A DNA stretch of 64,000 nucleotides, from assembly GCF_945952365.1 (NCBI RefSeq), contig NZ_CAMFHX010000009.1:1-64000 (forward strand), read 5' to 3'. The position numbers and the translations under genes are program-made. The notes below the pieces were generated by a model, which had not been told where the DNA came from, searched no databases, and saw only the letters and a list, made by a program, of their open reading frames with translations. This stretch comes from an uncultured Cetobacterium sp. GTDB lineage: Bacteria > Fusobacteriota > Fusobacteriia > Fusobacteriales > Fusobacteriaceae. Positions 13,023 through 56,886 of the stretch are shown in pieces; position 1 is the stretch's first letter; each line of letters starts with the position of its first letter.

Positions 13023-13177
13023 CTTGAAAAGTTTTGCAAACTAGTACTGACATGGGAAGTACTGTAAAGGTATGTTAGGCTGTAGAGCTAGTAACTCGAA
13101 AGAGGCATACCGAAGAAAGTCTTAGTTGGTTTTTATACCGACGGATATATAAAATTTTCGGAAGAGGAGGAAAAATT
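13023..13177 (+). promoter_or_regulatory. Structured leader upstream of rpsM (candidate S4-type leader)
   Basis: This 155-base gap holds several helices: AGTACT (13043-13048) with AGTACT (13058-13063); GGTATG (13069-13074) with CATACC (13106-13111), enclosing a CTC-GAAA-GAG tetraloop hairpin at 13095-13104; and GTTGGT (13125-13130) with ACCGAC (13137-13142). An alternative pairing of CCGA (13138-13141) with TCGG (13158-13161) would alter access to the rpsM Shine-Dalgarno. Leaders bound by S4 control the alpha operon in several phyla, and I recall a candidate described for Fusobacteriales. The match is inferred, not tested. Confidence 0.6.
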
Positions 13178-44805: not shown

Positions 44806-45153
44806 TGGTGGAGATGACGGGAATCGAACCCGTGTCCAAAATTGCAAGCGCCATAAGCTTCTACAAGCTTAGTTTGCTATTTAGATTCGCAATAGTTACT
44901 CCCGCAAACAGGGCTAACTAAAGCTATCCTCTAAAATGTCCCCTATAGCTTAGAGAAATTACTTAGGGTAATCTGTATTTAAGTGACACCTTGATTGAAC
45001 GCTCCTACAGAAGAGAATGTTCAGAGGTGAGCTGACATTATGCAGCTAAAGCGTAATTATTGTTTCCATCTAAACGATGAGTTGACCTCTCACAGCGGTC
45101 AACCTGGCCTGCTACTTATAACCTCACAACCCTGTCGAAACCTTTGCATCCCC
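44806..45153 (-). ncRNA. ssrA: Transfer-messenger RNA
   Basis: The 348-base RNA rescues stalled ribosomes with SmpB. On the minus strand the 5' end GGGGATG (from 45153) pairs with CATCTCC before the encoded CCA (ending at 44806), forming the acceptor stem. The T-arm GGGTTCGATTCCC is present near the 3' end, and the 5' part contains the usual GCAAAGGTTTCGACAGGG. The tag frame lies at 45038-45067, with pseudoknot-rich sequence after it. A strong promoter and terminator flank it. This is a one-piece, not permuted, tmRNA. Confidence 0.97.
45038..45067 (-). other. tmRNA proteolysis-tag reading frame (GNNNYALAA)
   Basis: Within the tmRNA the frame GGA AAC AAT AAT TAC GCT TTA GCT GCA TAA encodes GNNNYALAA, preceded in the product by the tRNA-borne alanine. 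The YALAA ending matches the E. coli tag and is the ClpXP/ClpAP recognition end. The GGA resume codon and three asparagines in a row are unlike E. coli ANDENYALAA. Confidence 0.9.
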
Positions 45154-55278: not shown

Positions 55279-56619
55279 TTACGCTTCCACAGGTTTGAAT
55301 CTACTTTGGTACTCTTTTAGAGAGTTAAAAGCAATTTGTGAAAGTGGGAAAACGCCAGATAGATTTATAATTGTCATAAGAGCTAAACCTAAATCAGCAA
55401 GATTCCACATAAATAGATTTTGTTGAATTCCACCAATAAATATCATACTAAGAGCAAAAATTTTGAATGTTGTTTGTCCCCACTCTTTATCAGTTAGGAA
55501 TTTAACATTAACTTTTCCGTAGAAGCAGATTCCTAAAAGAGTTGAGAAACAGAAAAGGAAAAGAATAATAGCTACAAAAATCTCACCAAATGTTGAACCT
55601 AAATGGAAATTAAAAGATTTTTGTAAAAGTTCCATTCCACCCAAACCTGCTACTGCAGAAGAGTCTGTTAGAAGCATAACAAGTGCTGTTGCTGTACAGA
55701 TTACAAAAGTATCAACAAATACACCAAGACTTTGAATTAATCCTTGTTCTACAGGATGAGAAACATTAGCACTTGCAGCAGCACAAGGAGCACTTCCAGT
55801 TCCAGCTTCATTTGAGAATAACCCTCTTTTAACTCCTTGCATAATAACAGCTCCAATAGTTCCTCCAATTCCTTGTCTGATTCCAAAGGCCTCAGAAATA
55901 ATTTGAGAAAAAACAGAAGGCAGAAGAGTTATATTTTTTACGATTATAAAGAATACAATTCCTAAGTATAAAACAGCCATCACAGGAACTACTTTATCTA
56001 AAACTTTTGCTGTTTTATCTGTTTTACCAAAGATAATAATAGCTGCCATTGAAGTTAAAACAGCTGAAATAACTAAAGGACTTAAATTAAATGCCACATT
56101 GAAAGATTCAGTAACAGAGTTTGAAACCACTTGAAGAACACCAGCCCAACAGATTATACCAGTTATTACAAAAGCTACTCCCCAAGACTTTTTTCCTAAA
56201 CCGTTTTTTAAAAAGAAGCAAGGTCCTCCGAAAAATTGTCCATTTTTATCCTTTTCTCTAAATATCATAGCTAGAGTAGTTTCAACAAAAGCAGTAGCAG
56301 AGCCTAAGAATGCAACAACCCACATCCAAAATACAGCACCAGCACCACCTATAGATATAGCACTAACAACACCCGCTAAATTTCCAGCTCCAACTCTTGT
56401 AGCTGTACTTATACAAAATGCTTGAAACGGTGATAAATTTTCTGAATTGTTATTTGATTTCGTAGTCAGTAAAACTACCATATGTTTTAAGAAACGTAGT
56501 TGAACAAAGTTTGTTTTAAAAGTAAAAAATACTCCTGAAAAAATAAGTAAAACTACTAATAGATTTTTACCCCAAAGGATAGAATTTAAAAAATTAACAA
56601 CACTTTCTAAAATAAACAT
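55279..56619 (-). CDS. AGCS-family sodium:amino acid symporter (possibly tyrosine)
   Basis: The 446-residue transporter has about eleven hydrophobic segments and AGCS motifs: FCISTATRVGAGNLAGVVSAIS, GGAGAVFWMWVVAFLGSATAFVETTLA and the signature KRGLFSNEAGTGSAPCAAA. Characterised members carry alanine or glycine with Na+. The ATG at 56619 follows GGAGGAG. The leader upstream encodes a peptide with five consecutive Tyr codons followed by a terminator, so expression probably rises when charged tRNA-Tyr is scarce. I infer that tyrosine, or a tyrosine source, is a substrate. Confidence 0.93.
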   Translation of the reverse strand: MFILESVVNFLNSILWGKNLLVVLLIFSGVFFTFKTNFVQLRFLKHMVVLLTTKSNNNSENLSPFQAFCISTATRVGAGNLAGVVSAISIGGAGAVFWMWVVAFLGSATAFVETTLAMIFREKDKNGQFFGGPCFFLKNGLGKKSWGVAFVITGIICWAGVLQVVSNSVTESFNVAFNLSPLVISAVLTSMAAIIIFGKTDKTAKVLDKVVPVMAVLYLGIVFFIIVKNITLLPSVFSQIISEAFGIRQGIGGTIGAVIMQGVKRGLFSNEAGTGSAPCAAASANVSHPVEQGLIQSLGVFVDTFVICTATALVMLLTDSSAVAGLGGMELLQKSFNFHLGSTFGEIFVAIILFLFCFSTLLGICFYGKVNVKFLTDKEWGQTTFKIFALSMIFIGGIQQNLFMWNLADLGLALMTIINLSGVFPLSQIAFNSLKEYQSRFKPVEA

Positions 56620-56650: not shown

Positions 56651-56680
56651 ACAAAAAAGCCTGTGGACTTACCACAGGCT
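56651..56680 (-). terminator. Attenuator terminator upstream of the AGCS symporter
   Basis: On the minus strand AGCCTGTGG (56680-56672) pairs with CCACAGGCT (56666-56658), loop TAAGT, followed by TTTTTTG. It lies in the leader, 32 bases before the symporter ATG, so it would stop transcription before the gene. Confidence 0.9.
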
Positions 56681-56771
56681 GAAATAAACAGGTCTATGTA
56701 ACAAATCCACTTACTACTATTAAAGTAACACAAAATGGATTCGTATTTGTCATGAAACAAAAATACCAATC

Positions 56772-56828
56772 CTAGGTTAAATAATAGTAGTAATATGCAT
56801 TTGTATTAAAAACTATTTTTTGTTTCAC
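56772..56828 (-). CDS. Tyrosine-rich leader peptide MKQKIVFNTNAYYYYYLT
   Basis: An 18-codon frame starts with GTG at 56828 and ends with TAG. The Shine-Dalgarno GAGGAGG lies five bases upstream, one of the best in the window for so small a frame. Residues 12-16 are five consecutive tyrosines (TAT TAC TAC TAT TAT). The frame lies between a strong promoter and an intrinsic terminator, with the symporter gene beyond. This is the layout of leader peptides in ribosome-mediated attenuators (for example Phe-rich pheL or Thr/Ile-rich thrL of E. coli). The peptide itself probably has no function apart from being translated. Confidence 0.88.
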   Translation of the reverse strand: MKQKIVFNTNAYYYYYLT

Positions 56829-56858
56829 TTTTTCCTCCTCATTAAATTATTTTGAGTT

Positions 56859-56886
56859 ATTATAACACAAATCAAAAATAATACAA
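56859..56886 (-). promoter_or_regulatory. Promoter of the leader peptide-AGCS transcript
   Basis: On the minus strand TTGTAT (complement of 56881-56886) and TATAAT (complement of 56859-56864) are 16 bp apart with a consensus extended -10 (TGTTATAAT). The start would lie near 56852, about 25 bases before the leader peptide. Confidence 0.85.

Follow-up and report, generated by a model that had tools for sequence, protein, structure and literature searches.

The region upstream of the Cetobacterium symporter gene agcS is very probably a transcription attenuator of the ribosome-mediated type. It would respond to charged tRNA-Tyr and is one of a family of Fusobacteriaceae attenuators with a shared layout. 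The RNA switch probably turns agcS on when tyrosine is short. The case is built from sequence analysis, which reveals a short open reading frame (ORF) with its Shine-Dalgarno sequence, conservation of both, alternative helices, covariation, and a match between the codons of the leader and the function of the downstream gene. We refer to the whole 64,000-nucleotide stretch of DNA that was analyzed as the window.

A leader ORF with five tyrosine codons precedes agcS

The putative regulated gene, agcS (55279..56619; this and the other features of the locus lie on the minus strand), encodes a 446-residue AGCS-family sodium:amino-acid symporter that matches TIGR00835 over its full length (E=1.4e-131, 439 bits, cut-off 272.65), and its start at 56619 has its own Shine-Dalgarno sequence, AGGAGG. 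Upstream lies a leader ORF of 18 codons plus TAG, MKQKIVFNTNAYYYYYLT (56772..56828), recognized by its translation and by its conservation in homologues. Read from 56828 to 56772, the ORF translates to VKQKIVFNTNAYYYYYLT followed by a stop; because the start codon is GTG, the initiator residue is M. The Shine-Dalgarno sequence of the leader, AGGAGG (56834..56839), is placed 5 nt before the GTG. Near the end of the frame are five Tyr codons, TAT TAC TAC TAT TAT (56781..56795), the putative sensor. A promoter is predicted by consensus match at 56859..56886, consisting of a weak −35, TTGTAT (56886-56881), and an extended −10, TGTTATAAT (56867-56859); the order TTGTAT, AT-rich spacer, TATAAT recurs 5' of most of the orthologous Cetobacterium leaders. 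Between the leader and agcS is an intrinsic terminator, E:F (56652..56681; AGCCTGTGG-TAAGT-CCACAGGCT-TTTTTG), with a 9-pair stem at 56680-56658, a loop of 5, a T6 tract, and a calculated E:F energy of −16.0 kcal/mol. The first-pass annotation had described a GTG frame with a Shine-Dalgarno sequence between an extended −10 and an intrinsic terminator, and each of these elements is confirmed at its exact coordinates; its reading of the arrangement as the logic of an amino-acid attenuator is supported by the alternative pairings, the conserved Tyr run, and the codon-gene matches on the same scaffold that are described below.

Alternative pairings and a proposed switch

What could the leader RNA form other than the terminator? 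Element A (56780..56804, coding ACAAATGCATATTACTACTATTATT) pairs with element D when it is free of ribosomes. Element B (56758..56772, GGATTGGTATTTTTG), which begins in the stop codon, pairs with element C (56731..56749, CAAATACGAATCCATTTTG), and C, whose 3' end is an ATTTTG(T) motif, can pair with either B or D. Element D (56702..56721, AATAGTAGTAAGTGGATTTG) pairs with A, with C, or, as an antiterminator, with the terminator region, and in this antiterminator element X (56689..56698, CATAGACCTG) pairs with E through CATAG:CTGTG and CTG:CAG. In the window, the A:D duplex has a calculated energy of −27.4 kcal/mol versus −12.1 for a shuffled partner (z=−5.6), and the B:C and C:D helices have energies of −11.7 and −13.3 kcal/mol, respectively. 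Across 15 first leaders the corresponding ranges are −11 to −14 (B:C), −9 to −16 (C:D), and −14 to −18 kcal/mol (E:F), and the antiterminator ranges from −7 to −13 kcal/mol with D and from −3 to −8 when D is otherwise engaged. The RNAalifold consensus recovered C:D and E:F unprompted; gaps in the D loop kept it from finding A:D, and duplexes calculated for each sequence were used instead. On the D-E sub-alignment, RNAalifold chose the terminator and not the antiterminator.

Covariation bears on the same helices. In an alignment of 59 family members, which was fitted to the model and so favours structure, pairing holds in 94.4% of the cells of the C:D and E:F helices, and two-sided changes occur in 19 of the 21 pairs. 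The covariation score of this alignment is 0.597, compared with 0.249±0.010 for shuffled controls, a control that is inflated by related sequences, and at most 0.115 for slid ones. Furthermore, changes in C go together with changes in B and in D, as seen in the sets GGATTTGT/ACAAATCC/GGATTTGT, GAGTTTGT/ACAGACTC/GAGTCTGT, and GGGTTTGT/ACAAGCCC/AGGGGTTGT. One segment covarying with two partners is what a switch predicts.

We infer from these pairings that ribosome stalling operates the switch in the following way. RNA polymerase would start about 25 nt 5' of the leader, with a ribosome translating the 18-codon frame behind it. When Tyr-tRNA is scarce, the ribosome would stall on the Tyr codons, masking A and leaving B free, so that B:C forms. 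D would then be free, and D and X together would pair with E and the terminator loop (GGATTTG..CATAG..CTG / CAG.CTGTG..AAGTCC), blocking the terminator and allowing agcS to be transcribed. When Tyr-tRNA is plentiful, the ribosome would reach the stop codon and cover B, since B begins in the stop codon; C:D would pair, E:F would form, and transcription would stop. With no translation at all, A:D would form with B:C nested inside it, E:F would form, and the gene would be off. With the usual ribosome footprint, which reaches about 12-15 nt past the A site, B is predicted to stay free while the A site holds a Tyr codon up to the third or fourth of the run, and to be covered by a ribosome at the stop codon. 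Equilibrium pairing of E, calculated for each ribosome position on the window sequence, did not clearly separate the stalled state from the stop state, and the model therefore needs co-transcriptional kinetics.

A different antiterminator, in which D pairs with F (GTGGATTT:AAATCCAC), was judged by eye to be good in some Cetobacterium leaders and broken in genera g11, g13, and g14; it is also kinetically unlikely, and the D+X:E pairing was adopted instead. We also note a motif at the loop side of C, ATTTTGT or ATGTTGT (56737-56724 in the window), which lies outside the pairing model. TTTTGT or TGTTGT is found at this position in most family members, whatever the amino acid, and is perhaps a pause site or a tertiary or protein contact.

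One scaffold with exchangeable codon runs

A covariance model built from the Tyr leaders (R1) was searched in 98 Fusobacteriota genomes, and beyond the AGCS leaders its weaker matches turned out to be leaders in which a different codon run precedes a cognate gene. A second covariance model (R2), run on 39 Fusobacteriota genomes, had matches at 67 places in 28 of them, all Fusobacteriaceae, and none in the five genomes of other Fusobacteriota families in the set. There was likewise no match in 16 genomes from outside the Fusobacteria, a set that contains no positive control. Non-Tyr leaders on this scaffold, in other Fusobacteriaceae genera, are found among L157, L158, L160, L150, L154-L156, and L196-L240.

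Fifty-seven of the R2 places were read in detail. Tyr leaders precede tyrS at 10 places and an AGCS gene at one. His leaders precede the genes of polar-amino-acid ABC binding proteins (16 places) and hisZ (three), and Met leaders precede metG, metN, or hom/metY (13). Asn leaders are found before asnA (four places), a Thr leader before thrS (one), and a Trp leader before trpS (one), with further Trp leaders before sodium-dependent transporters (two). Leaders with scattered Pro codons precede putP (two places), and mixed Trp/Tyr/Phe leaders precede a DAHP synthase gene (two). At L237 there is no plausible leader, and at L204 the downstream gene is not readable. With the downstream genes assigned by NCBIfam scans of 20 representative proteins and otherwise by near-identical N-termini, leader codons and downstream gene agree in all 36 unambiguous cases, for example tyrS, trpS, metG, hisZ, and asnA. 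Since the covariance models are blind to gene function, this match is independent support for codon sensing. The segment that pairs with the codon run changes as well: it is ATCTATGATGAT in His leaders, complementary to CATCATAGAT, and AATAGTAGTAA in Tyr leaders.

We propose that the codon run and its complementary segment have been exchanged together across the family, so that an entire bacterial family uses one RNA scaffold for seven single amino acids (Tyr, His, Met, Trp, Asn, Thr, and Pro) and a mixed aromatic set, sometimes in tandem. We think it likely that amino-acid homeostasis in the Fusobacteriaceae runs largely through this one homologous attenuator family, whose exchangeable codon cassettes stand before synthetase, transporter, and biosynthesis genes in the role that T-boxes have in Firmicutes, and that the AGCS protein is a tyrosine importer. 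For work on how a codon cassette determines specificity, the family offers a ready-made natural series.

Another, weaker family member lies in the source genome (L233, G000:C23:1998-2150, minus strand, E=0.0165). Its leader, MTNYNLISKTTMMNMMPMGVGTKN, precedes a metN-like ABC transporter gene and is also present in genome G001 (L234).

Conservation of the leader and alternative explanations

The source genome is Cetobacterium-like, with an 89% identical protein encoded by an uncultured Cetobacterium MAG. A close agcS ortholog is present in nine Cetobacterium genomes, including the source genome, with 78-100% identity, and the leader is present in all nine. It is also found at homologues of 57-71% identity in genera g2, g11, g13, and g14. 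The first-pass annotation had proposed that related loci be compared for conserved Tyr runs with silent codon changes. This expectation held for the leaders themselves, which keep the Tyr run, Shine-Dalgarno sequence, stop codon, and terminator, with silent changes; it did not hold for every locus, because the g4 and g5 homologues (57-60% identity) have no such leader, and the leader is therefore not universal. Tyr5 is kept in all of the homologous leaders across five genera, where the Tyr codons vary between TAT and TAC only, and every one has a strong Shine-Dalgarno sequence ahead of a GTG or ATG start. In g13 and g14, the first leader is followed by a second one, in which Tyr is encoded six or seven times (MKFKFNYYYYYYLLNLGHRV, MFRTNYYYYYYYKSDLDYAI), and by a second terminator, giving tandem attenuators before one AGCS gene. 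These second leaders (L122:1325-1387, L124:1309-1371, L125 on the minus strand, and L129:1313-1375) match model R2.

Could the RNA, rather than the ribosome, be the sensor? The Tyr codons would then be there only because TTACTACTAT must pair with D, with the RNA itself sensing, for example, an unknown metabolite or protein. In favour of this view, the AGCS leaders show strong A:D complementarity, with z from −2.2 to −5.7 in 12 of 14 first leaders and only weak pairing in L115, and nucleotide-level conservation extends to C, D, and the loop motif. We nevertheless consider this explanation improbable: elsewhere the layout stays constant and the codon run follows the downstream gene, becoming His, Met, Trp, Asn, Thr, or Pro, the Shine-Dalgarno sequence, start, and stop are kept, and L114 retains Tyr5 although its A:D pairing is lost.

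Slightly less probable again is a leader-controlled element that acts mainly through translation coupling or Rho and not through the intrinsic terminator. For Cetobacterium and for g2, the antiterminator hairpin outscores shuffled sequences (z −1.9 to −3.8; z=−2.1 for the window hairpin). In g11, g13, and g14, it is weak and not clearly above shuffles (z about +0.9 to −0.6), as translation coupling or Rho would allow. Against this, the members have a strong terminator with a T tract, and among the 59 aligned members two-sided changes occur in eight of the nine E:F pairs.

A functional small protein encoded by the short ORF, together with a terminator that belongs to a separate small transcript, is very improbable. 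The good Shine-Dalgarno sequence and the conservation of the peptide within Cetobacterium would fit such a protein, but outside Cetobacterium the Tyr run alone is kept, the N- and C-termini differ among genera (MFRFRKINTTSYYYYYRT, MGSNLQFFIRNAYYYYYKNKDWC, MLKTIKINTTSLYYYYYL, MKKSNFITTLYYYYYRKQDLN), and the same scaffold bears other residues before other genes.

Finally, a chance Tyr run in an AT-rich intergenic region is the least probable explanation of all, and the first-pass annotation had likewise judged chance very unlikely: Tyr4 codon strings are as frequent in the genome as a reversed control pattern (50 sites versus 49), but a Tyr5 run in a Shine-Dalgarno-preceded ORF of 8-40 codons occurred in none of 150 dinucleotide shuffles of the window, and conservation in five genera with silent changes refutes a chance origin. 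A Tyr5 run of any kind appeared 0.033 times per shuffle, and the window has exactly one. Because Tyr4 strings are common in this AT-rich genome, the Tyr run alone is insufficient and its significance comes from context and conservation; when 30 Tyr4 loci were inspected, a short Shine-Dalgarno-preceded ORF was found only at two overlapping sites, both in the Tyr5 leader.

Relation to known regulatory systems

The Fusobacteriaceae switch family is previously unlisted. Rfam holds amino-acid leader families such as His_leader and Trp_leader, and none matched the window or the leader at E values up to 5. The Rfam matches in the window are an S4-Fusobacteriales ribosomal protein leader (13062-13117, plus strand) and a tmRNA (44806-45153, minus strand), both known elements. 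In Proteobacteria, the his, trp, pheA, leu, and thr attenuators combine a leader ORF of cognate codons with protector and competitor hairpins and an intrinsic terminator. The Fusobacteriaceae leaders are similar in having a short ORF with putative cognate codons, predicted competing hairpins, and an intrinsic terminator, and the His5 runs in sister leaders resemble the proteobacterial his leader. They differ in that no sequence relation to the proteobacterial leaders was found with Rfam, C pairs alternately with B and D, and one scaffold is common to many amino acids, with a Cetobacterium member that is predicted to sense Tyr and precedes an AGCS symporter gene.

T-box riboswitches, such as that of Firmicutes tyrS, read uncharged tRNA and control synthetase and amino-acid transporter genes through a terminator. 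The Cetobacterium leader would share terminator-based control of such genes, but it uses a codon run in an ORF, and neither the window nor the leader has a covariance-model match to RF00230. With strict filters, T-boxes were not found in 12 Cetobacterium genomes and were few elsewhere in the Fusobacteriaceae; the attenuator family offers an explanation for amino-acid control in genomes where T-boxes were not found.

Neither leader-peptide attenuation in Fusobacteria nor a tyrosine-specific case turned up in a search that mostly covered literature outside subscription, and the main text of a 26-genome screen that includes Fusobacteria names no such motif in the part available. According to the accessible text of Naville and Gautheret (2010, PMC2965389), leader-peptide attenuation has been described mainly in Proteobacteria and Actinobacteria, together with the His leader peptides that replace T-boxes at hisS*/hisZ in bacilli. 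Like the family described here, these bacilli leaders lie outside Proteobacteria and Actinobacteria, but they are confined to His and to Firmicutes, and that text describes no shared scaffold for multiple amino acids. Similarly, the C. glutamicum aroR attenuator has aromatic codons in its leader peptide, Phe-Tyr-Phe, before a DAHP synthase gene (Neshat et al. 2014, as reviewed in PMC11802643); according to that review the operon is unaffected by Tyr availability, and on that description the Cetobacterium leader differs in its pure Tyr5 run, its phylum, and its gene. Likewise, uORFC-13-1 and uORFC-8-2 are candidate uORF attenuators from comparative genomics (PMC8632094), as is the present family, but they concern other phyla, amino acids, and genes, with one gene each: aroF in Acholeplasma (Phe) and cysS in Rhodobacterales (Cys).

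Leader codons and transporter substrates

Leader codons predict the substrates of unannotated transporters, including tyrosine for the Cetobacterium AGCS protein, which we propose imports this amino acid. The nearest solved relative of the agcS product is AgcS (6cse/6csf), a sodium/alanine symporter, so tyrosine as a substrate is predicted from the leader alone. A residue comparison of the AGCS protein with AgcS (6cse) gave no clean substrate signal: the Trp of the GWSYYGE segment is Ile, Val, Asn, or another residue in many AGCS proteins, with or without leaders. Tyr leaders were not found at the paralogous AGCS loci of Cetobacterium, and the short region upstream of Cetobacterium tyrS lacks a leader.

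Other transporter genes also have leaders of this family. L231 and L240, whose Trp codons give FSWCWC and HWW, each stand before a different sodium-dependent transporter of the NSS type, and this points to tryptophan as the substrate. Finally, L239 and L221 precede putP, which encodes a sodium/proline symporter, and their leaders end in NNVNRQPIPPR and NNSPIMP, in which Pro is present but not run-like.
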